A DNA stretch of 52,637 nucleotides from Streptococcus sp. HSISM1 (GTDB taxonomy: Bacteria; Bacillota; Bacilli; Lactobacillales; Streptococcaceae): NCBI RefSeq assembly GCF_000448565.1, contig NZ_CM002128.1:31368-84004 (forward strand), read 5' to 3'. Shown here one piece after another: positions 3,656-41,759 of the stretch. The notes below the pieces were generated by a model. That model made no database searches. It had not been told where the DNA came from and saw nothing but the letters and a program-made list of their open reading frames with translations. The translations under genes and the position numbers were made by a program. Position 1 is the stretch's first letter; each line of letters starts with the position of its first letter.

Positions 3656-4133
3656 AAGTGGATTGTTTACAGGATCGTTTGATCCGATTACCATTGGGCA
3701 TGTGCAATTGATCGAGCGAGCTAGTCGCTTGTTTGACCGTGTCTATGTCGGAATTTTTTATAATCCGGAAAAAGTCGGACTCTTTTCTATTGAGCAGCGC
3801 GTGCGCATGGTGAAAGGGGCCTTGGCTCATTTGGAAAATGTTGAAATTGTGACGTCAACTCAAGAGTTGGCTGTGACAGTGGCGCGCAATCTTGGGGTCA
3901 TCACCTTGATCCGGGGCTTGCGCAATGCACAGGATCTGGTATACGAAGCCAATATGGATTATTTTAATCACCAGTTGGCGCCTGAATTGGAGACGGTTTA
4001 TCTCTATGCCCAGCCTCCTTACCAGGCCATTAGTTCAACGCGTATTCGAGAGTTGCTGGCTTTTCAGCAGGATATCTCACCTTATGTCCCAAAGAGTGTA
4101 ATGGAGGAAATCAAAGATGACACAAGCGAATAA
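3645..4133 (+). CDS. coaD: Phosphopantetheine adenylyltransferase
   Basis: Fourth step of coenzyme A synthesis: transfers AMP from ATP to 4'-phosphopantetheine, giving dephospho-CoA. 162 residues, typical for the family. The nucleotidyltransferase signatures are intact: GLFTGSFDPITIGH with the TxGH motif near the N-terminus, IRGLRNAQD in the middle and ISSTRIRELL near the C-terminus. The start overlaps rsmD by 11 bp. The 3' end overlaps the likely original ATG of sepM (4117). The rsmD-coaD-sepM order is standard in streptococci. Confidence 0.95.
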   Translation: MSDRSGLFTGSFDPITIGHVQLIERASRLFDRVYVGIFYNPEKVGLFSIEQRVRMVKGALAHLENVEIVTSTQELAVTVARNLGVITLIRGLRNAQDLVYEANMDYFNHQLAPELETVYLYAQPPYQAISSTRIRELLAFQQDISPYVPKSVMEEIKDDTSE

Positions 4134-5198
4134 ACCAAGCTTGACCACTAAAAAGAAAAAGGACGGTTGAAAGAATACCGATGGCCGATTGCAGGCGTTC
4201 TTTTCTTGCTCCTCTTGCTAGCTGCTTTTGTGATTCGCCTTCCCTATTATATTGAGATGCCGGGTACGGCAGAAGATATTCGATCGGTCATGACAGTGGA
4301 TGGAAAAATGGATACCAAGTCAGGGTCTTATGACTTTGTAACCGTGGCAGTGAAAGAAGCGACCCCGGCTGATTTGATCTATGCTTGGGCGACACCTTTT
4401 ACAGATATCTACTCTGCCAAGGATATGACAGGTGGTAGTTCGAGCCAAGAATTTACACGGATTAACCAATTCTATATGGAAACCTCGCAAAATATGGCCA
4501 TCTACCAAGGGTTAAAGACAGCTGGAAAAGAAACCCAGATGGACTTTCTTGGTGTTTATGTTATGCAGGTAGCAGATGACTCGACTTTTAAGGGAATCTT
4601 GAACATTGCGGATACCGTCACCGGTGTGAATGGCAAGACCTTTAAGAGTTCCAAAGAATTGATTGACTATGTCGGTTCTCAAAAAATTGGCGACCCTGTT
4701 TCAGTGACCTATATTGAGGATGGACAAACCAAGACCGCAGACGGAAAGATCATCAAATTGTCTAACGGGAAAAACGGAATCGGGATTAGCCTGATCGACC
4801 GGACTGAAGCCAAAGGAGATGTTCCTGTCCAGTTTGCGACTCAAGGGATTGGTGGACCAAGTGCCGGCATGATGTTTAGCCTAGCTATCTACACCCAAGT
4901 GGCTGATCCAGATCTTCGTCAGGGACGCCATATTGCAGGGACAGGAACCATTAACCAAGATGGAACGGTTGGCGACATCGGTGGGATTGACAAGAAAGTC
5001 GTCGCAGCCGATAAAGAAGGAGCAGAAATTTTCTTTGCCCCTAATAATCCTGTTTCCAAAGAAGAAAAGAAAGCCAATCCCAAGGCCAAATCAAACTATG
5101 AAACAGCGAAAGAAGCAGCGAAACAAATTCATTCGAAGATGAAAATTGTCCCCGTCAAAACCCTTCAAGACGCTATTGATTATTTGAAGAAGAATTAG
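4117..5198 (+). CDS. sepM: PDZ-domain Lon-like (S16) membrane protease, SepM family; 5' frameshift
   Basis: Membrane-anchored extracytoplasmic serine protease. Order: one N-terminal transmembrane helix (GVLFLLLLLAAFVIRL), a PDZ region around residues 120-190, then a C-terminal Lon-type S16 domain with the catalytic serine in GGPSAGMMF and the catalytic lysine in GGIDKKVVAADK. In S. mutans the relative SepM trims the competence peptide CSP; the substrate here is unknown. As sequenced the long frame can start only at TTG 4167. An ATG at 4117, overlapping coaD, opens a lysine-rich N-terminus (MTQANKPSLTTKKKK) that runs into a stop at 4168. One extra A in the A-runs at 4150-4160 would join it to RLKEYRWP in frame, so I infer a single-base deletion. 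A terminator follows at 5296. Confidence 0.88.
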
Positions 5199-5218
5199 AA
5201 GTATCTTGTTAGATCAGT

Positions 5219-5238
5219 CTCGTACTTGAAAGTACGAG
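5219..5238. repeat. 9-bp perfect inverted repeat downstream of sepM
   Basis: CTCGTACTT (5219-5227), GA, AAGTACGAG (5230-5238). It has no T-tract, so it is not an intrinsic terminator. It could be an mRNA-stabilising hairpin or a protein-binding palindrome between the sepM operon and ccdA; function unknown. Confidence 0.45.
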
Positions 5239-5295
5239 GTAGAGTTGGCAGATAGGAAGATTCACCTTCTAATCAAATTCAAGTTTTTGCTTATC

Positions 5296-5323
5296 AATCT
5301 CTCTATTTTTAGAGGGATTTTTT
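5296..5323 (+). terminator. Intrinsic terminator of the rsmD-coaD-sepM operon
   Basis: AATCTCTCTA (5296-5305), TTTT loop, TAGAGGGATT (5310-5319) with one G-T wobble, followed by a T-run. Confidence 0.75.
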
Positions 5324-5360
5324 CTTTATACTGGTATCAGAAAGAAAGGGAGGTAGTGAA

Positions 5361-6071
5361 ATGATTCAAACCAGTTTGTTTTCCATTTCAGTATTCTTAG
5401 CGGGAGTTCTATCCTTTTTCTCCCCATGTATTTTGCCACTGATGCCAGTCTATGTAGGGATTCTATTGGATTCTGAACGTGTGAAGACAGTTCGAATTTT
5501 TGGAAGAGATATTTCTTGGTATGGCTTGGTGAAGACTCTTTGTTTTATCGCAGGTCTATCAACTGTTTTCCTGATTCTAGGATACGGTGCAGGGGCCCTT
5601 GGCCAGGTATTGTATGCTCCATGGTTTCGCTATCTGCTAGGAGGGATTGTGATCCTATTAGGGATTCACCAAATGGAAGTGATCAATCTGAGACAACTCC
5701 AAAAACAAAAGACCCTCCAACTCAAAAAGAATCGGGAGCGCAATGAATTCTTCAATGCTTTTCTGATAGGGGTCACCTTCAGTTTTGGTTGGACCCCTTG
5801 TGTCGGACCAGTTCTGAGTTCGGTTCTAGCCATTGCCGCTTCTGGAGGAAATGGTGCTTTACAAGGCGCTCTCCTGATGCTGATCTATACATTAGGTTTG
5901 GCTCTGCCTTTCTTGCTTTTGGCCTTGGCTTCTAGCTGGGTTCTACAACATTTTGCTAAACTCAAGCCCCATATGGGAACCTTGAAAAAAATTGGTGGTG
6001 CCCTCATCATCTTGATGGGCATCTTGCTGATGCTAGGAAATCTTAATAGCCTCGCATCCCTGTTTCACTAA
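5361..6071 (+). CDS. ccdA: CcdA-type thiol-disulfide membrane transporter
   Basis: Carries reducing equivalents from cytoplasmic thioredoxin across the membrane to extracytoplasmic thioredoxin-like proteins. 236 residues with six hydrophobic helices. The two conserved cysteines sit in the expected prolines-and-glycine settings, FFSPCILPLMPVY near residue 25 and GWTPCVGPVL in helix 4. The start has a strong ribosome binding site (GGGAGG, 9 nt upstream). It heads a cluster with a Met-rich lipoprotein, a TlpA-like lipoprotein and MsrAB, matching the pneumococcal ccdA1-etrx1-msrAB2 arrangement, so its likely role is feeding electrons to surface methionine sulfoxide repair. No clear sigma-A promoter is visible upstream. 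Confidence 0.93.
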   Translation: MIQTSLFSISVFLAGVLSFFSPCILPLMPVYVGILLDSERVKTVRIFGRDISWYGLVKTLCFIAGLSTVFLILGYGAGALGQVLYAPWFRYLLGGIVILLGIHQMEVINLRQLQKQKTLQLKKNRERNEFFNAFLIGVTFSFGWTPCVGPVLSSVLAIAASGGNGALQGALLMLIYTLGLALPFLLLALASSWVLQHFAKLKPHMGTLKKIGGALIILMGILLMLGNLNSLASLFH

Positions 6072-6097
6072 TCTTGAATGATTAAAGGAGAAAAATC

Positions 6098-6418
6098 ATG
6101 AAAAAAATTCTTGCACTTTCTATTGCTACACTTAGCATCGTCACTTTAGCAGCTTGTTCTGGACAGAAATCAGATTCAGACATGAAAAAAACGGACGATA
6201 GTAGTATGATGAAGAAGGACGATATGAAGAAGGATGACATGAAGGATTCATCCATGTCCGATGATAAAATGAAAAAAGAAGACATGAAAGATTCATCTAT
6301 GATGTCTGACAGCAGTTCTGAAATGAAGGACGATATGAAAAAGGATGAGATGAAATCCAGCGATTCAGAAATGAAAGACGAAAAGAGTGGATCATCTGAT
6401 ATGAAATCAGACAACTAA
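6098..6418 (+). CDS. Methionine-rich low-complexity lipoprotein
   Basis: No named family recognised. 106 residues: a lipoprotein signal peptide (TLAAC, lipidated Cys20) followed by an 87-residue tail. After Cys20 the tail contains only Met, Lys, Asp, Ser, Glu, Thr, Gly, Gln and Asn. Fifteen of these are methionines, spaced in degenerate units such as MKKDD, MKDSS and MKDDMKKDE. There are no aromatic, aliphatic, Pro, Arg or His residues, so it should be disordered, solvent-exposed and tethered outside the membrane. It sits 26 bp after ccdA and ahead of tlpA and msrAB. From this context I infer a sacrificial oxidant scavenger regenerated by MsrAB, analogous to the periplasmic Met-rich peptide MrpX described beside MsrP-type reductases. 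Metal binding through Met/Asp is an alternative. Good ribosome binding site (AAAGGAG). Confidence 0.85.
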   Translation: MKKILALSIATLSIVTLAACSGQKSDSDMKKTDDSSMMKKDDMKKDDMKDSSMSDDKMKKEDMKDSSMMSDSSSEMKDDMKKDEMKSSDSEMKDEKSGSSDMKSDN

Positions 6419-6427
6419 TGAAAGAAG

Positions 6428-6456
6428 GGAGAGGTCATCTGAGGATGACTTTCTCC
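6428..6456 (+). terminator. Stem-loop between the Met-rich lipoprotein and tlpA genes
   Basis: GGAGAGGTCATC (6428-6439), loop TGAG, GATGACTTTCTCC (6444-6456), followed by TTATTT. It is a partial terminator or mRNA-processing hairpin that could make the small lipoprotein transcript more abundant than the downstream genes; it also carries no competing start codon. Confidence 0.5.
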
Positions 6457-6477
6457 TTATTTAAAGAGGTAATAATG

Positions 6478-7038
6478 ATGAAGAAATTAGCTTTAGTAGC
6501 TGCAGGATTCTTGTGTACTGGACTTTTGGGGGCTTGTTCGAGTCAAGGAATGGCTGCTTCCAATAAGGACATGAGCCAACAAACAGCCAAAGCTGGGGCT
6601 AGGCAACCATCTGGCAAGAAAGTGAAGGAGTTTAGTTTGCAAGGAGTGGATGGTAAGACCTACCGCTTATCCGATTATAAGGGAAAGAAAGTTTACCTCA
6701 AATTTTGGGCTTCCTGGTGCTCAATCTGTCTTTCAACATTAGGCGACACAAATGATTTAGCAAAGGCAGAGGAGGGTAAGGATTATGTGGTCTTATCCGT
6801 TGTAGCTCCAACCTTTAATGGTGAAAAACCGGAAGCAGATTTCAAAAACTGGTACCAGTCTTTGGATTACAAGGATTTCCCGGTCTTGCTAGATAGTAAA
6901 GGGGAACTGCTAAAAGAGTATGGGATTCGTTCATATCCATCGGCGCTCTTTATCAATAGTGATGGGACTTTAGCAAAGAGTCATATTGGCTATATGAATA
7001 AAGAGGATATCCTCAAGACCCTAGAGAACATGCAGTAA
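6478..7038 (+). CDS. Thioredoxin-like lipoprotein (TlpA/Etrx1 type)
   Basis: Surface thiol-disulfide oxidoreductase that takes electrons from CcdA and passes them to MsrAB. 186 residues: lipoprotein signal with lipobox LLGAC (Cys20), a short Ser/Gln/Ala linker, then a TlpA/ResA-like thioredoxin fold with the redox pair Cys81-Ser-Ile-Cys84 in FWASWCSIC and the cis-proline region IRSYPSALF. The start at 6478 is preferred over 6475 (adjacent ATG) and over 6418, because AAGAGG lies 8 nt upstream of 6478 and the signal peptide begins there. It lies 11 bp before msrAB. Corresponds to Etrx1 of S. pneumoniae by order and fold. Confidence 0.92.
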   Translation: MKKLALVAAGFLCTGLLGACSSQGMAASNKDMSQQTAKAGARQPSGKKVKEFSLQGVDGKTYRLSDYKGKKVYLKFWASWCSICLSTLGDTNDLAKAEEGKDYVVLSVVAPTFNGEKPEADFKNWYQSLDYKDFPVLLDSKGELLKEYGIRSYPSALFINSDGTLAKSHIGYMNKEDILKTLENMQ

Positions 7039-7049
7039 GGAGATAGACA

Positions 7050-8170
7050 ATGGAAACAAAGTGGAAAGTGTTTGCTATCCTTCTCATTGGCTTATTATCT
7101 ATTGGTTTCTTTTTCTTTAGTAAGGGAGCAAACGGAATGGATCAATCAGAAACAAGCACTGAGATGATTAAAAAAGCATCGATGAGTCAGACTCCAGTAG
7201 CCAAAAAGGAAACAAAGGAAAAGGTTGATCCAAAGGATCAGCGTGAAATTTATTTGGCTGGTGGTTGCTTCTGGGGCGTAGAGGAATATTTCTCCCGTGT
7301 TCCAGGTGTGATCGATGCTGTATCAGGCTACGCTAATGGAAAGGGAGAAACGACCAAGTATGAATTGGTCCCTCAAACAGGCCATGCTGAAACAGTTCAC
7401 ATCACCTACAATGTCAAGAAGGTATCTCTGAAAGAATTGCTCCTGTATTATTTCCGGATTATCGACCCAACGTCGAAGAATCGACAAGGAAATGATCAAG
7501 GGACACAATACCGAACAGGTGTCTATTATGTCTCTCAAGAAGACCTTCCAACCATTAATCAAGTCTTTGAAGAAGAAGCAAAAAATACGACAAACCGTTA
7601 GCAGTGGAAAAAGAGCCACTGACCAATTTCATCAAGGCTGAGGACTACCACCAGGATTATCTAAAGAAACATCCGAATGGGTACTGCCATATCGATGTCA
7701 ATCAGGCTTCTTATCCTGTTATTGATGCTAGTCGCTACTCCAAGCCAAGCGATGAGGAGATCAAAAAGAAGTTATCTCCTGAAGAGTATGCGGTGACACA
7801 AAAAAATGATACCGAACGGGCCTTCTCCAATCGTTACTGGGATCAGTTTGATGCCGGTATTTATGTAGATGTCGTGACCGGTGAGCCACTCTTTTCCTCT
7901 AAGGATAAATTTGATTCTGGTTGTGGTTGGCCAAGTTTCAGTCGACCTATTAGTCCTGATGTGGCCATCTATAAGGAGGATAAGAGTTTCAATATGACTC
8001 GGACAGAAGTTCGGAGCCGTGTAGGAAATTCTCATCTGGGCCATGTTTTTACCGATGGTCCCAAGGAAAAAGGCGGCCTTCGCTATTGCATCAATAGTTT
8101 GTCTATTACCTTCATTCCCAAAGCAGAAATGAAAGAAAAGGGCTACGGTTATTTATTGGACTACGTCTGA
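7050..8170 (+). pseudogene. msrAB: Bifunctional peptide-methionine sulfoxide reductase MsrAB, membrane-anchored; frameshifted as sequenced
   Basis: Reduces both S (MsrA) and R (MsrB) methionine sulfoxide in extracytoplasmic proteins. N-terminal membrane anchor ([17 protein letters not shown]), MsrA domain with catalytic Cys73 in [11 protein letters not shown], then MsrB domain with DSGCGWPSF and catalytic Cys in GLRYCINS. The frame breaks at the junction. The MsrA frame ends at 7601 and the MsrB frame resumes with the expected sequence [14 protein letters not shown] if one A is added to the six-A run at 7580-7585. With that base the product is about 373 residues, normal for the secreted streptococcal MsrAB. 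I treat the break as a probable sequence error; if real, MsrA loses its C-terminus and MsrB would have to start separately at 7604. Confidence 0.9.
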
Positions 8171-8187
8171 GACATTTGGAACCATAA

Positions 8188-8210
8188 TTTGCTATAATAA
8201 GTATAGCAAA
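8188..8210 (+). promoter_or_regulatory. Promoter and overlapping palindrome of the two-component operon
   Basis: Extended -10 TGCTATAAT (8190-8198) lies inside a perfect inverted repeat: TTTGCTATA (8188-8196), ATAAG, TATAGCAAA (8202-8210). A site covering the -10 box suggests repression or autoregulation, possibly by the response regulator encoded 18 bp downstream. No separate -35 box is evident. Confidence 0.6.
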
Positions 8211-8228
8211 GACAAGTAGGTGAAAGAC

Positions 8229-8962
8229 ATGTATGCGATCATGATTGTGGAAGATGAAGAGCTTATCCGGCAGGGTCTGACTTCCTTAGTGGATTATGAA
8301 CAGTTTGAAATGACCATCATCAACCAGGCTAAAAATGGACGTGAGGCCTGGGAGAAGTTTCAAGATCAACCAGCTGATATCCTTCTAACCGATATCAATA
8401 TGCCACAAATGAATGGGTTGGATTTGGCCCATCTCGTCAAAGAGCAATCTCCGTCTTGCCATATCATTTTTTTGACAGGTTATGATGACTTTGAGTTTGC
8501 GAGAAAAGCCATCAGGTTAGGTGCAGATGATTATTTGCTGAAGCCTTTTTCAAAAGATGATATTGAAGAGATGTTAGCCAAGGTGAAAGGAAAGCTCGAT
8601 CAAGAGCGAAAGAAGGCGCAAGTAGAAGATTTGGTCAGTCATGGTTATTCGACAGACTTGGAAGAAGCCATTCATGCTCGTTTAGCAGACTCTCAGTTAA
8701 CTCTAAAGGATCTGGCCTATCAACTTGGTTTCAGTGCCTCTTATCTAAGCGTATTGATCAAGAAAAATTGGGACTCCCCTTCCAAGACTACCTCATCCAG
8801 GAGCGAATGAAGAAGGCTCAACTCTTGCTTCTCACGACAGATCTAAAGATTTATGAGATCGCCGATCAGGTTGGTTTTGAAGATATGAACTATTTTTCTC
8901 AACGCTTTAAGCAGGTTGTTGGGGTGACACCAAGGCAGTACAAAAAAGGAGAGCATGAATGA
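8229..8962 (+). pseudogene. Response regulator, YesN type (receiver plus AraC-type DNA-binding domain); frameshifted as sequenced
   Basis: Receiver domain (residues 1-120) with acidic pocket Glu8/Asp9, phospho-acceptor Asp55 (LLTDINMP) and the LLKPF lysine, followed by an AraC-type double helix-turn-helix (LKDLAYQLGFSASYLS and IYEIADQVGFEDMNYFSQRF). The start at 8229 has AGGTGA 6 nt upstream; a GTG at 8220 is possible but lies within that site. The frame breaks at the five-A run 8763-8767. One more A restores the continuous KKKLGLPFQDYLIQERM and gives about 245 residues, the usual size. It matches RR09 of pneumococcal TCS09 by position after msrAB. Without the repair the second DNA-binding helix-turn-helix is lost. 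Confidence 0.88.
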
Positions 8963-10671
8963 AACGATATCCCTTGCTGATCCAGCTGGTCCTCTACTTT
9001 TTTCTATTCATTCTCCTACTTTTTGGTCTTATTGGTGGCCTCTATTATCAAACGAGTTCAGGGACGATCCGCCAGCTAACGGAGCGGACGACAAGAAATA
9101 GTATCGATCAAAGCAGTCAGTTTATTACCTCCTATCTAAAAAAATTAAAGCAGACGACGACGGTGCTTAGCAAAGAACAGGCTGTTCGCCAATTTGCCCA
9201 AGATAGGAGTGCGGATCAAGAAACGGTTCAACACCTGATGCGAACGATGATTGAAACAGATCCGGACTTGGTCTCAGCGGTCTTGGTGACCAAGGATGGA
9301 CGTCTGGTAGCGACAGATACAAAAATCAGCATGCAGACCTCCTCAGATATGATGAATGAAAGCTGGTATCAAGAGGCGATTAAGGAAAGAGCCATGCCAG
9401 TTTTGACGCCAGCTCGAAAGGAATCCTTAACCTCGGAAAAAGAAAAATGGGTGGTTTCTATTACCCAAGAAGTGGTCGATCAGACTGGTCAAAATCTCGG
9501 AGTAGTACGCTTGGATATTGGCTACGATAGCCTTCAGGCTTACTTGGATCACCTTCAACTAGGGAAACAAGGCTTTAGTTTTATCATTAATCAAAAGCAT
9601 GAGTTTGTCTACCATCCCAAAAAAGCGGTCTATTCTTCCAGTCAAGAAATGCAGGCTATGCAGCCCTATATTGCTGTGAAAGATGGCTATGCTAAAGGAG
9701 GACAGAATTTTATCTATCAGGTTCCGATTCCAGATAGCGATTGGACCTTGATTGGAGTGGCTTCACTTGAAGGACTTCAGATGCTGCAGTCGCAGCTCCT
9801 GTACTCTTTCATTGGTCTAGGATTACTAGCTTTGATCATGTGTTTAATAGGGATCGGCTTTGTTCTGCGTTTGTGGATCAAACCTTTACGAGACCTTCAG
9901 ACCATCATTTTGAGGATTGGAGCAGGAGATGCTCACGTAAGAGCTGTAGCCAAAGGATCTCCAGAATTGGTGGCCCTCGCTCAAGCGTTTAATGCCATGT
10001 TGGACCAAATCGATAATCTCATGCAACAGGTTAAGGAAGAGGAGCAGAACGCACGGCGGTACGAGTTGCGGGCACTTTCAGCTCAGATTAATCCGCATTT
10101 CCTCTACAATACCTTGGATACGATTGTCTGGATGGCGGAGTTTAATGATAGTCGGCGCGTGGTCGACATCACTAAGTCTCTGGCTCAATATTTTCGACTG
10201 GCTCTTAACCAAGGCCAGGAGCAAATCCTACTGAGAGATGAAATCGACCATGTCCGCCAGTATCTTTTCATTCAGAAGCAACGTTATGGAGAAAAGCTCA
10301 ACTATGAAATTCTAGAAGATGAACGGTTGGGCGACTATCAGATTCCTAAATTAGTGCTTCAACCCTTAGTGGAAAATGCGATTTACCACGGCATTAAAGA
10401 GATCGATCGGCCAGGTCTCATTCGAGTGACAACTGAAGTCAGTGGAGACTACGCCTGCGTATCGATTTTTGACAATGGACGAGGGTTTGACCGATCAGAA
10501 TCAACAGACCAAACCCTTCTTCGTTTAGGAGGTGTTGGCTTGAAAAATGTGGACCAACGATTGCATCTTCAATTTGGCGAAGCCTATCATATGGAGATTG
10601 ATTCTAAGGCCAATAGCTATACGAAAATTACTCTTTTTTTGCCCCTTTCATCATCTGATGAACATGTATAG
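8959..10671 (+). CDS. Sensor histidine kinase, YesM/LytS-type
   Basis: 570-residue membrane kinase partnered with the preceding response regulator (4-bp ATGA overlap). Order: transmembrane helix 1 (residues about 9-30), a large extracytoplasmic sensor of about 240 residues resembling a double Cache domain, transmembrane helix 2 (about 275-300), HAMP (about 300-355), a His_kinase domain with phospho-acceptor His380 in INPHFLYNTLD, and an HATPase domain with N-box Asn473 in ENAIYHG and glycine box DNGRGF. The closest known system by gene order is HK09 of pneumococcus. Because the sensor faces outside and the operon follows the methionine-repair genes, an envelope redox or ligand signal is plausible but unproven. 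Confidence 0.92.
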   Translation: MKRYPLLIQLVLYFFLFILLLFGLIGGLYYQTSSGTIRQLTERTTRNSIDQSSQFITSYLKKLKQTTTVLSKEQAVRQFAQDRSADQETVQHLMRTMIETDPDLVSAVLVTKDGRLVATDTKISMQTSSDMMNESWYQEAIKERAMPVLTPARKESLTSEKEKWVVSITQEVVDQTGQNLGVVRLDIGYDSLQAYLDHLQLGKQGFSFIINQKHEFVYHPKKAVYSSSQEMQAMQPYIAVKDGYAKGGQNFIYQVPIPDSDWTLIGVASLEGLQMLQSQLLYSFIGLGLLALIMCLIGIGFVLRLWIKPLRDLQTIILRIGAGDAHVRAVAKGSPELVALAQAFNAMLDQIDNLMQQVKEEEQNARRYELRALSAQINPHFLYNTLDTIVWMAEFNDSRRVVDITKSLAQYFRLALNQGQEQILLRDEIDHVRQYLFIQKQRYGEKLNYEILEDERLGDYQIPKLVLQPLVENAIYHGIKEIDRPGLIRVTTEVSGDYACVSIFDNGRGFDRSESTDQTLLRLGGVGLKNVDQRLHLQFGEAYHMEIDSKANSYTKITLFLPLSSSDEHV

Positions 10672-10702
10672 AGACAAAGATTGCCTTCTTTGTCTCTTTT
10701 TC
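10670..10702 (+). terminator. Intrinsic terminator of the two-component operon
   Basis: AGAGACAAAG (10670-10679) pairs with CTTTGTCTCT (10688-10697), followed by a T-rich tail. The stem overlaps the kinase stop codon. Confidence 0.85.
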
Positions 10703-10771
10703 CTTTTGGAAGCTCTCAATGTTGAATTTCGACTCTTTTCTAGTCAAATCTGACGCAAGTCATCAAATTTA

Positions 10772-10780
10772 TGATAGAAT
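10772..10780 (+). promoter_or_regulatory. Extended -10 promoter of the YutD-like gene
   Basis: TGATAGAAT fits TGnTATAAT with one mismatch, 38 nt upstream of the ATG at 10819. Confidence 0.5.
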
Positions 10781-10818
10781 AAAGTGTTACAGTAAATAGA
10801 TTTTGATGAAGGAACACT

Positions 10819-11394
10819 ATGCGAAAAGAGATTGACCCTGAATTATATAATTACAATAAATTTCCTGGACCTGTGTTTCGTCAGGTAGGAGACCAGATCC
10901 TTTCAGAAAACCTCTCCTTTGAGCTCTTGAAAAATGAGAAGGAAGCATTTGATGCGACCGTTTTTGGTCAGCGATTTTCTGAGATTTTAACCAAGTTTGA
11001 TTACATTGTTGGCGATTGGAGCAATGAGCAGTTGCGCTTGCGTGGCTTCTATAAGGAAGAGCGAGATGTTGCAACGATGGATAAACTAAGTCGCTTAGAC
11101 GATTATTTGTTAGAATATTGTAGCTATGGTTGTGCTTATTTTGTCCTTGAAAATAAGGAACCTCATCGTGCTTCTTTTGATAAGAAATCACCGGTCAAAA
11201 AAGCTCAATCAGAAGAAAGAGAACCGAAGAAGCGTTCGCGCAATCGCAAACAAAAAGATCGTTTCCAAAAACGAGAACGCGACAAGGGACAGTCAACGAA
11301 TAACTCGAAAAGAACAAGACCGTCTACTGAAACGAAAAAAACAACGAAGACGAACAACAAACGTCATTTTGTGATTCGACAAAAAGAGGAGTAA
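10819..11394 (+). CDS. YutD-like (DUF1027) protein with long basic tail
   Basis: 191 residues of unknown function. Residues 1-115 form the compact YutD-like domain (YNKFPGPVFRQVG, DYIVGDWSNEQLRLRGFY, YLLEYCSYGCAYFVLEN). The last 70 residues are low-complexity and very basic (Lys/Arg with Thr, Ser, Asn), a tail that could bind RNA or ribosomes. It lies 6 bp upstream of rlmN, and this pairing is conserved in streptococci, which makes a ribosome-linked role plausible. No catalytic motif is recognised. Confidence 0.85.
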   Translation: MRKEIDPELYNYNKFPGPVFRQVGDQILSENLSFELLKNEKEAFDATVFGQRFSEILTKFDYIVGDWSNEQLRLRGFYKEERDVATMDKLSRLDDYLLEYCSYGCAYFVLENKEPHRASFDKKSPVKKAQSEEREPKKRSRNRKQKDRFQKRERDKGQSTNNSKRTRPSTETKKTTKTNNKRHFVIRQKEE

Positions 11395-33488: not shown

Positions 33489-35747
33489 TTATGCTTCTGA
33501 CTTCTTTTCAGCCGTCTTGTGAACAGCTTTGATACTAATATTCCCATTGCTGGTCATGACTGCTTTGAGTTGTTTCTCACTTGGATGTTCCAGGTAATAA
33601 TCGGTAATGGCATCTTCGATATGGTCTTGGATGGTACGACGGAGTGGGCGGGCCCCCATTTTTGGATCGTATCCCAGATCGACCAATTTTTCTTTGACCT
33701 TCTCTGTCACATCCAGATGAATCTCATTTTGTGCGAGACGTTGATTGACTTCATCCAGCATGAGGGTAACGATTTGGAGAAGGTTTTCTTTTGATAGAGG
33801 TTGGAATTCAATGATGCCATCAAAGCGGTTCATGAATTCAGGGCTAAAGAAGTTACCGAGTTCTCCCAGTACAGAGTTGGTTCGACCTTCGCGAGCAGCT
33901 CCAAAACCAACATTGGCCTCAGCTTTGCCGGTTCCAGCATTAGAGGTCATGATGATAATGGTATCTTTAAAGCTGACGGTACGGCCTTGACCATCTGTCA
34001 AACGGCCATCATCTAAAACTTGCAAGAACATGTGCATGACATCTGGATGGGCTTTTTCCACTTCATCCAACAACACGAGGGAGTATGGATTGCGACGAAC
34101 CTTTTCCGTTAGTTGTCCAGCTTCATCGTAGCCAACATAGCCCGGAGGAGCTCCGACTAGTTTCGCTACGCTATGTTTTTCCATGTATTCGCTCATATCA
34201 AAGCGGATCATATTGTCTGCAGAGCCAAAGAGCTCGATCGCCAATTGTTTAGACAATTCGGTCTTTCCGACACCGGTAGGTCCGACAAAGAGGAAGCTTC
34301 CGATCGGACGGTTAGGTGATCCTAGGCCAACACGATTGCGTCGAATGGCTTTCGCAATTTTATCCACTGCATCATCTTGACCGATCACATGGGTTTTCAA
34401 ATCAGAAGCCAGATTGATCAATTGAGATTGTTCTTTTTCTTTCAAATCACCAACAGGAATATTGGTCTTTTGTTCAACGATGTGTTCAATAGTTTTTTCA
34501 CTGATGACAGGGGTCTCCTGATCAGTGACATGTTGACCTTGCATTTCCTTGTATTTCGCGATTTGGTCACGGAAGTAGGCTGCTTTTTCAAAGTCTTCTT
34601 CGCGGGTTGCTTGAGCTTTGAGGTTTTCCGCTTCAATCAAGCGCTGGTCGATCACTTTTGGATCCACAAAGTTTAGGGTCAGGTTCATCTTAGACCCCGC
34701 TTCATCCAACAAATCAATGGCCTTGTCTGGCAGGAAGCGATCTTGGATGTAGCGGTTTGACAGAATAGCTGCCGCTTCGATGGCCCCGTCTGTATAGTGG
34801 ACGTGGTGGTAGTCTTCGTATTTTTTCTGGATGCCCTTGAGGATGGTGATGGTTTCTTCAACCGTTGGTTCATCGACCTTAACGGGCTGCATCCGACGTT
34901 CCAAGGCCGCATCTTTTTCAATGATACGGTATTCATTGAGGGTAGTAGCCCCGACTAATTGGAGTTCTCCTCGCGCTAAGGCTGGTTTGAGGATATTTCC
35001 AGCGTCCATATTGCCCTCACCAGCTGATCCTGCGCCAACAATTTCATGGATTTCGTCGATGAACAGAATAACATCTTCGCGTTGACGAATTTCATCCATT
35101 AATTTTTGCATGCGTTCTTCGAATTGACCACGGATGCCTGTGCCCTGAACGAGGCTCACGACGTCTAGGCGGATGACTTCTTTTCCTTGCAATTTATGTG
35201 GAACGTCGCCATCAACGATTTTTTGAGCCAGGCCTTCCACAACGGCAGTCTTTCCGACACCAGGTTCTCCGATCAGAACCGGATTGTTCTTGGTTCGACG
35301 GTTGAGAATTTCGATGACACGGATAATCTCTTCGTCACGGCCAATGACAGGGTCAATATCCCCTTTGCGGGCAATTTCTGTGACATTGATGCCGAACTCT
35401 TCTAACAGCCCTTTTGGCTTTTGAGGGCGTGCTTGACGAGGGTCTTGACCACCACCACGGTTATTGTTTTGGCCGTAGCCGCCACCTCCATAACTGCCTC
35501 CGGATTGAGTTGGAGGGGTTTGAGGTTCTTGCGGACTTTGGAAGTTTCCAAGGTTATTGAAGAAATCTTCAAAAGGATCTCCAGTGAGTTGGCTCCGTTG
35601 GGTCATGCCCTTCAAGAAGCTGTTATTTGGGTCTGTTTTCATAATTTTATAGCAATTTTGACAGAGGTCTACTTGCTGCTGACGTCCATTTACATTTGTA
35701 TATAAATGGATGGTTGATTCATTTATTTTACAATTTTGACAAAGCAT
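33489..35747 (-). CDS. clpE: ATP-dependent Clp protease ATP-binding subunit ClpE
   Basis: Hsp100 unfoldase that feeds ClpP. 752 residues: an N-terminal zinc finger (CQNC ... CQNC within the first 35 residues), a Gly/Asn/Gln-rich linker, AAA+ domain 1 with Walker [14 protein letters not shown], a UVR-like coiled-coil insert, and AAA+ domain 2 with [12 protein letters not shown]. The start at 35747 (MLCQNCK) is preferred to 35753 because GAGG then sits 7 nt upstream rather than 1 nt. A CtsR operator lies about 60 bp upstream, so it is a class III heat-shock gene. Repeat copy B follows the stop. Confidence 0.95.
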
Positions 35748-40440: not shown

Positions 40441-40486
40441 TAAAGAATAAAAAGACAAGTCTTGTGACTTGTCTTTTTATTCTTTA
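40441..40486. terminator. Long perfect bidirectional terminator between scrB and mleP
   Basis: A 21-bp perfect stem (40441-40461 with 40466-40486, TTGT loop) with core GACAAGTC/GACTTGTC and A/T tracts on both sides. Its right edge overlaps the mleP stop codon; it serves both convergent genes. Confidence 0.9.
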
Positions 40487-41759
40487 AGAGAGGACAGAAG
40501 CGAGGAGCCCTCCGAGAATGAGGATGATAGCCCCGCTCAGTCGGTTGGCCATTTGGGCGAAGGCGATCATTTCCATGCGATCGGATGCGGAGAGAACAGC
40601 GATATTTCCGGTTCCTCCCATCGAGTTATTGATCATACCAGATCCGATAGCAGTCTCGACTGGATACAATCCAACCAGTTTTCCGATCAAAGCAGAAGCA
40701 AGCCCCATAGCTACCACAGAGGTCAAGCTTAGGAGAATGAATTGCCAGGTCATCGCCTTAGCTAGAGTTGAAAGATCAATCAAGGAAAGACCGATCCCAG
40801 CTAGGACTGCATGGGTGAGGTTGGTCATAATGACTTGGTTGAACATGACCACACAGTTTTTCCAAAGGTTTTGGGACGGCATTGAAAGCTTTCAGGATAA
40901 AGACGATGATAATCATGAAGGCATAACTGTGGATTTTTGGAACAAAGGCATTGCAGATGACCCCGAGAAGAAAAATACTAAAGGCAAACATCATTCCAAC
41001 TCCCGATTGGGTCGGATCAAGGGTGAGTTTTTCTTTCTTCAATTCATCTTTATTGACCGGAATCAAGACACCGTGACCATTGTAAGGACTATCTGCAAAG
41101 ACTTTGACGATCAAAACAGCACCAATGATGGCAAGGATATTACCAAGTGTGGTAGCGGGTGCCAATTGAGAGAAGATGGCTGCTTGGCTTCCGTGGAGAT
41201 TGGCAGCATAGATCTTTGAAAGAGGCAGGATTCCAGCTCCCATTCCTCCGACCATTTGTGGGAAGGAAACATAGAGAATCGAATGTCCAAATCCTTGTCC
41301 CAAAAGGCTTCCAACGATCCCAACAGAGAGAGCACCAACGACCATGGTGACCAAGGAAACAGGAATAAAGCGAGCGGAAGCTTTTACCAAAAGATTGCGA
41401 TTCATCCCTAGAATAGCCCCACAAATCAAGGCTGCGATATAAAAATCCAGAAAGCCAAAGGAATCTCCCAAAAAGCCCTTGGTGGCTGTGATAATGTTTG
41501 CTGGAATAACATGGTAGGTCGCTAGAAGAGTAGCTCCTAGTAAGGTGAAGACAGATCCCCCACCTAGGTAAGAATTCATGATTGGAAGTTTATCACCGAT
41601 AAAGTAGAGAAGATGCCCCATGACGACCAAAAGGAGGGTTAGTCCAAGCATATTGAGTGGGAGTTTCCCCATAGCAATCGTCACCGCAAGAACGATGACG
41701 ATAAATGCATACAGAGGAAGACTGACACCGGAAATGTTGATTTCATTCAATTTTTTCAT
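40484..41759 (-). pseudogene. mleP: Malate permease MleP, 2-hydroxycarboxylate transporter family; frameshifted as sequenced
   Basis: Secondary transporter taking up malate, probably in exchange for lactate, during malolactic fermentation. Multi-helix membrane protein of the 2HCT family (CitS/MleP): GGSVFTLLGA, the re-entrant-loop motif VGGMGAGILPLS near residue 165, and the second loop SGMINNSMGGTGNIAVL near the C-terminus. The frame breaks at the run of five T at 40857-40861 (plus strand). One more base there joins VPKPLEK to NCVVMFNQVIM and gives about 425 residues, the normal length. It lies 21 bp downstream of mleS on the same strand. Confidence 0.88.

Follow-up and report, generated by a model that had tools for sequence, protein, structure and literature searches.

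A methionine-rich lipoprotein within a streptococcal CcdA-TlpA-MsrAB cluster is a candidate rechargeable oxidant sink

A small gene in Streptococcus sp. HSISM1, for which the name metL is coined here, probably encodes a sacrificial methionine ‘sponge’ that is recharged by MsrAB: a Gram-positive lipoprotein coupled to the CcdA-TlpA-MsrAB pathway and resembling MrpX and BcrX. The gene was studied in the window (the whole 52,637-nucleotide stretch of DNA that was analysed) and in relatives. The lipoprotein signal, the composition of the chain, selection for its Met, linkage to the repair genes, fusion to a neighbouring thioredoxin and the occurrence of the complete cluster in a second family can all be read from the DNA; we infer the oxidation of MetL, its reduction by MsrAB and its protective effect on the cell. 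In the proposed mechanism, MetL would hold 15 exposed Met on the outer face of the membrane, where H2O2 from oral streptococci themselves, or HOCl from neutrophils, would oxidise them before essential surface proteins. Both sulfoxide epimers would be reduced back by MsrAB, itself reduced by TlpA with electrons that would come from the cytoplasm via CcdA. MetL would then be a rechargeable sink and, at the same time, an always-accessible substrate for MsrAB on the same membrane face; in other lineages the Met module forms the stalk of TlpA, which would combine sink and reductant in one molecule.

The predicted signal peptide of MetL (MKKILALSIATLSIVTLAAC) has the positively charged N-end, hydrophobic core and lipobox Cys of bacterial lipoproteins, and A19, C20 and S21 were invariant across 23 aligned MetL sequences, among which the chain differed in length by pentads. 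The mature chain of 87 residues (S21, D21, K19, M15, E5, G2 and one each of C, Q, T and N) contained no A, V, I, L, F, W, Y or P, Met being its sole hydrophobic residue, and is presumably disordered; the preliminary description had reported this length and composition correctly, save that it omitted the lipid Cys. No Pfam model matched MetL. Met accounted for 17.9% of the residues past position 22, compared with 6.4% in the next-highest ORF of the window, and at the 2.19% Met of the 49 other window ORFs kept (≥80 aa) the probability of at least 15 Met in 86 residues was 6.5e-10, which rules out a chance origin of this fraction. Moreover, Met residues were spaced exactly five apart in 7/14 intervals (shuffle mean 1.16; 0/2000 shuffles reached seven). 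Repeated M-x-K-D-x pentads behind an export signal characterise the MXKDX type; the window chain has such pentads, with MxKD occurring three times, and MetL from three other loci (L126, L144 and L150) kept much of the five-residue spacing without any MxKD. An antisense ORF at 6082-6414 was rejected as a gene, as it overlies the metL repeat.

Table 1. Features of the metL cluster in the window.
Feature	Position	Strand	Details
ccdA, membrane electron carrier (CcdA/DsbD_TM), first cluster gene	5361..6071	+	Pfam DsbD_TM 9.1e-19
Predicted lipoprotein signal peptide, lipobox LAAC, Cys20 the expected lipidated residue	6098..6157	+	translation
metL, Met-rich lipoprotein	6098..6418	+	106 aa, lipid Cys20, MKKDD/MKDSS-type pentads
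Intergenic hairpin, then short T-rich stretch	6426..6458	+	-17.9 kcal/mol, z -2.87
tlpA/etrx1, thioredoxin-fold lipoprotein (WASWCSIC), 31-residue stalk with 2 Met	6478..7038	+	Pfam Redoxin/AhpC-TSA
msrAB, MsrA part (PMSR), N-terminal hydrophobic segment, 3′ end frame-broken	7050..7601	+	Pfam
msrAB, end of MsrA and MsrB part (SelR), frame differs from MsrA part	7604..8170	+	Pfam
Response regulator, receiver and start of AraC-type HTH, frame-broken in HTH	8220..8810	+	Pfam Response_reg
Sensor histidine kinase (dCache_1, HAMP, His_kinase)	8959..10671	+	Pfam

The gene order in the window is sepM, ccdA, metL, tlpA, msrA/msrB, response regulator and histidine kinase (Table 1), and the succession of ccdA, a WCxxC thioredoxin-fold lipoprotein and msrAB is that of the streptococcal CcdA-Etrx-MsrAB cluster. 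The preliminary description had named CcdA, a thioredoxin lipoprotein, MsrAB, a kinase and a regulator as neighbours; Pfam recovered every one of them, although frame breaks interrupt both MsrAB and the regulator. Among solved chains, 4hqs (E 6e-61) and 4evm (4e-58) came closest to the window TlpA; both are listed as ‘Thioredoxin family protein’, and we take them to be pneumococcal Etrx1. An envelope location for MsrAB is suggested by its N-terminal hydrophobic segment together with published papers.

Among 197 genomes of the genus, TlpA matches were found in 153 and MetL matches in 79 (E ≤1e-3); weak MetL matches elsewhere in the genomes (E > about 1e-8) corresponded mostly to the signal peptide and were left out of the MetL tally. 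Matches below 1e-12 were present in 40/197 genomes, in all 40 directly 5′ of tlpA. The best TlpA locus was then taken from 130 of the 153 genomes, the 23 with weaker matches being left out, and msrA and msrB matches lay beside tlpA in 130/130 loci, a ccdA match upstream of it in 109/130, a regulator match downstream in 109/130 and a kinase match in 78 of the 100 longer loci. So frequent a two-component system would suit MetL as a redox sensor, its sulfoxidation signalling to the dCache kinase of the cluster and setting operon expression, and for S. gordonii the excerpts of PMC12650345 propose communication between the surface protein AbpA and this kinase; loci that lack MetL, however, can also have regulator and kinase (for example the mitis-type loci L076-L080), and we regard a sensory role as highly improbable.

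Parsing of 128 of the 130 loci (omitting L153, which by eye has a long Met-rich stalk, and the broken L160) gave stand-alone MetL only in 44, a Met-rich TlpA stalk only in 18, both in three and neither in 63. Five of the 21 loci with a Met-rich stalk, three of which also have stand-alone MetL, are marginal, with four Met in 34 residues (L090, L100, L102, L111 and L113); L155 (5 Met of 51) and L157 (4 of 51) fell just below the threshold and were counted as neither. MetL thus appears to be an add-on to a pathway that would work without it, and to which it would not be essential, because 63/128 loci, including those of S. mitis and S. oralis types, have neither form. Since ccdA was present in 43 of these 63, neither form accompanies ccdA, tlpA and msrAB in 43 of the 109 loci where all three occur. 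Nor did the presence of MetL track H2O2 production: S. mitis and S. oralis make H2O2 and have neither form. The loci without ccdA numbered 21, the broken L160 and 20 of infantis type (e.g. L112, L120, L123 and L140); the latter have tlpA-msrAB, with no window-like ccdA or regulator in the fetched stretch, and their electron donor would therefore be elsewhere or different.

A species-labelled scan covered the best 80 of 508 relatives, among which the closest were S. parasanguinis and Streptococcus sp. (TlpA 87–98%). Within these 80, stand-alone MetL was found in 35: S. parasanguinis (7/7), S. australis (3/3), S. cristatus (6/6), S. sanguinis (8/8), S. gordonii, S. rubneri, S. sinensis and S. 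xiaochunlingii (1/1 each) and Streptococcus sp. (7/19). A Met-rich stalk, by the same threshold, occurred in S. pacificus, S. zalophi, S. didelphis, S. acidominimus and S. thalassemiae (1/1 each), S. pneumoniae (2/2), S. pseudopneumoniae (1/5) and Streptococcus sp. (5/19), and neither form in S. mitis (10/10), S. oralis (5/5), S. pseudopneumoniae (4/5), S. infantis (2/2), S. anginosus, S. intermedius, S. shenyangsis and S. taonis (1/1 each) and Streptococcus sp. (7/19).

A tree of 82 loci was built from the TlpA domain and MsrB (324 columns) by a quick method that left 41/78 inner branches weak, with mitis, infantis and pneumoniae types thinned and states set by hand for L153, L155, L157, L256, L259 and L260 (L155 and L157 being counted as Met-stalk). 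It placed the window in a clade of 40 loci (SH-aLRT 98), every member of which has MetL. The preliminary description had proposed co-occurrence among relatives as a check, and absence of the gene from close relatives as an argument against its reading; such absence can be rejected, metL lying just 5′ of tlpA in 40/40 loci of the clade. As 40 of the 47 stand-alone MetL loci come from this single clade, they are far from 40 independent cases. Over the whole tree, stand-alone MetL needs six changes and the Met-rich stalk five, in counts that do not distinguish gain from loss.

Selection for Met in MetL is evident at the sequence level. In 39 sequences from the parasanguinis-to-sanguinis clade (37 distinct at the nucleotide level, in two main subgroups), non-consensus cells in consensus columns made up 2.9% for Met, 4.8% for Ser, 6.4% for Lys and 10.9% for Asp, and mismatches between the subgroups 5.4%, 11.0%, 12.7% and 16.6%, respectively, Met being mismatched between subgroups only with K, T or I. 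For metL, pN was 0.106 and pS 0.938 over the 37 distinct sequences, a rough comparison in that pS is past saturation and repeats can misalign; the ordering of residues, with Met the most conserved of the four major ones, is independent of this ratio. The conservation of Met positions within the clade, which the preliminary description had suggested examining through Met spacing, was accordingly high, and it is hard to reconcile with a chain that would serve simply as a spacer or as a polyelectrolyte of the surface, its Met being incidental to a disordered K/D/S linker. Low-complexity repeats do expand easily, and the variation of chain length by pentads is of that kind, but S. anginosus and S. 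intermedius have TlpA stalks of 33–40 residues with no Met; a spacer as such therefore needs none, and we consider this explanation quite improbable. Between lineages the MetL chain aligned poorly, and the putative relatedness of MetL across them is judged from its position, its composition and a start of DDSSMM type.

The sponge reading, which the preliminary description had also put forward, remains the best explanation and passed both comparative tests; it has to be qualified in that MetL is not essential, as the loci with a full pathway and neither form attest, and in that the MsrAB of the window itself reads as broken.

The strongest functional link, invisible to the earlier reader, is an in-frame fusion that joins the module to TlpA. 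Over its first 66 nt, the tlpA gene of L145, L149, L151 and L155 shared 85%, 86%, 85% and 77% identity, respectively, with the MetL gene of L109, compared with 62% (L145, L149 and L151 each) and 64% (L155) with the tlpA of L109, and comparison with L135 and L150 likewise placed these four 5′ ends closer to MetL than to TlpA. By this measure L145, L149 and L151 carry a metL-tlpA fusion, and the predicted TlpA signal peptide in these three and in L155 is that of MetL. L109 has both genes, each with a DDS(S/A)MMKKEDKMSD start; together with the MetL-type 5′ ends of tlpA, this indicates that free protein and stalk are one module common to neighbouring genes.

Fusion also bears on an alternative in which the Met-rich module would act as a docking tail, recruiting or storing MsrAB beside TlpA in a substrate-tethered reductase complex, instead of taking up oxidant in bulk. 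Several lineages have the module joined to TlpA, which places a substrate of MsrAB on MsrAB's own reductant, and both forms occur together in four genomes (L109, L135, L150 and L256). Against this, more loci have stand-alone MetL and no Met-rich stalk (44/128, 40 of these being one clade), and 15–19 Met are unnecessary for docking alone, making this reading unlikely.

Beyond the family, a complete ccdA-metL-tlpA-msrAB-RR-HK cluster was found in a genome from another family of the same order (L256, 2703-8622), with a 114-aa MetL of nearly pure, almost perfectly periodic MKKDD/MKDD repeats and a Met-bearing TlpA stalk; it looks like transfer of the whole unit. Within the window's own family, 51 genomes of other genera gave no strong match to the window TlpA (best 8.3e-5). 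MetL matches from other genera in L258 and L261 (E 5e-9 to 2e-6) were different lipoproteins without Met repeats, and that in L262 (E 4.6e-4) was another lipoprotein. A further match in the E range of L258 and L261 was a 235-aa lipoprotein of another genus (L257, 3498-4205, minus strand), in which DDEMx pentads, with Met every five residues, make up an acidic linker that precedes the C-terminal part; being larger and not beside msrAB, it was rejected as MetL.

Metal binding is an unlikely but not negligible alternative, in which thioether clusters of MetL would bind Cu(I)/Ag(I) and so give the envelope or the exposed thioredoxin protection against copper. Cu(I) is commonly bound by Met-rich stretches, and CcdA/TlpA proteins are sometimes linked to this metal. 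In one locus (L152, 2671-3474) the TlpA stalk is 114 residues long and rich in repeated HDKM motifs, and with many His beside Met, metal binding could matter in that lineage. However, ten mature MetL chains contained no non-lipid Cys, His or aromatic residue, and no copper gene was present among nine scanned ORFs of the cluster and its flanks. The sole window occurrence of TACANNTGTA, presumably the cop box, was at 35691, away from the cluster and at chance level, and cop-box regulation of the cluster was rejected. The His/Met or Cys/Met clusters, copper genes and cop box expected of Met-rich copper/silver proteins were thus not found, although Met-only Cu(I) sites would be compatible with the chain; the enzymes that accompany tlpA in all 130 loci, MsrA and MsrB, act on Met sulfoxide.

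Sacrificial HOCl sinks have been reported or proposed in MrpX (YedYZ, Azospira suillum) and BcrX (BcrQP, Brucella melitensis), going by excerpts of PMC8315932 and PMC4623255. As these are described there, they share with MetL a small exported Met-rich chain clustered with an envelope Met-sulfoxide reductase, and the parallel with MrpX drawn in the preliminary description holds to that extent, the reductase here being MsrAB and not MsrP/YedY. The excerpts place MrpX and BcrX in the Gram-negative periplasm, with an MsrPQ-type reductase and an ECF sigma factor, whereas MetL is a Gram-positive lipoprotein beside a two-component system, with a thiol-based MsrAB fed by CcdA-TlpA, and is fused to a thioredoxin in relatives. 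Against TIGR02953, the model for pentapeptide MXKDX repeat proteins of MrpX/BcrX type, the window MetL scored 19 bits, below the curated cut-off of 41; 18 of the 23 aligned MetL matched at E ≤0.1, the best being L159 (38.7 bits, E 6.9e-10) and L144 (37.1), so that by the curated cut-off MetL is rejected as a member of that family. A search of 249 genomes of the phylum gave no TIGR02953 match above the cut-off and five weak ones, the window's own gene not among them. For MetL and MrpX/BcrX, convergence is as likely as common descent.

Closer to hand, the window cluster represents the same cluster and pathway as CcdA1-Etrx1-MsrAB2 of S. pneumoniae and CcdA1-Sgo_1177-MsrAB of S. gordonii, as excerpts of the respective papers describe them: both have been established experimentally (PMC3914529 and PMC7034828, respectively), the similar reducing pathway of S. 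gordonii, needed for H2O2 tolerance, consisting of MsrAB together with two thioredoxin lipoproteins and two CcdA proteins. No Met-rich lipoprotein is mentioned in the excerpts of either. The two S. pneumoniae loci examined lack stand-alone MetL, and the stalk of one has four Met in 34 residues. A stand-alone metL lies between ccdA and tlpA in S. gordonii DD07 (L195), and we infer that strain Challis carries metL too. The S. gordonii operon genes named in PMC7034828 are the two-component pair, ccdA1, sgo_1177 and msrAB; sgo_1178 and sgo_1179 are absent from its main text, and these tags were not found elsewhere in the open-access PMC literature. Both genes that flank metL in DD07, ccdA and tlpA, were knocked out in that work, according to its excerpts (PMC7034828), and a ccdA1 insertion could be polar on metL. 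In Bacillus cereus, excerpts of PMC5526929 describe exoprotein Met recycled by MsrAB as an antioxidant, a likeness in that exported Met serves as an MsrAB-recycled antioxidant in a Gram-positive; there, however, the proteins are ordinary exoproteins and MsrAB is cytoplasmic, whereas the Met-rich chain studied here is a dedicated one and its neighbouring MsrAB is of surface type. The preliminary description knew of no streptococcal counterpart, and none was found in the open-access PMC literature. The sacrificial Met chains described earlier are from Gram-negative periplasms; if the proposal is true, MetL would add a Gram-positive, lipid-anchored version, either free or as a thioredoxin stalk, and buffering of oxidants by stored Met would be a general cell-surface strategy. 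The gene also lends itself to testing how sanguinis-type commensals withstand the H2O2 that they make.

The intergenic hairpin between metL and tlpA (Table 1) was matched in folding by 2/200 shuffles. Its conservation was assessed in 25 distinct intergenic sequences from 39 loci of the window's clade. Paired cells amounted to 91.2%, compared with 89.6% in column shuffles (0/500 reached the observed value) and 26–66% when the structure was slid by 1–3 columns, and five cells showed two-sided change (0/500 shuffles reached this); two of the five measures were no higher than the shuffle control, namely pairs with two-sided change (one; 377/500 shuffles reached this) and further pair types (six; 500/500). 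RNAalifold gave two-sided changes in 2/9 pairs. The hairpin was absent from six further MetL loci (L071, L109, L126, L135, L144 and L150), L158 has a 419-base spacer between metL and tlpA, and Rfam gave nothing at 4000-11000. These data are suggestive only of a conserved element that, in the window's clade, might act as a transcription attenuator or as a 3′ stabiliser of metL; either would make MetL more abundant than the enzymes. In a comparison of S. gordonii mutants, excerpts of PMC12650345 describe a falling gradient along the operon, for which polarity or attenuation is suggested, and do not mention MetL. A fuller version of the sponge proposal, possible but put forward tentatively, is that the sponge is modular, either free or welded onto the thioredoxin that feeds MsrAB (sink, docking site and reductant in one), and that the hairpin of this clade may cause the free sponge to outnumber the catalytic proteins.

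The frame breaks of the window split msrAB (7050-8170) and the regulator (8220-8958), and both were absent in 4/4 relatives compared. Where frame-changing differences from these four relatives were seen, the window lacked a single base, except for one intergenic difference from one relative. The breaks more likely reflect assembly error than decay, because MsrA and MsrB matches share one frame in the other 129/130 loci, the window being the single exception. Such probable errors may affect further genes of the window genome, which consists of one contig at 95.65% completeness (most genus genomes being at 99–100) and whose second TlpA paralog has an in-frame stop. Elsewhere in the window, at 40484-41759 on the minus strand, two overlapping ORFs of 132 and 327 aa look like one frameshifted membrane protein gene.
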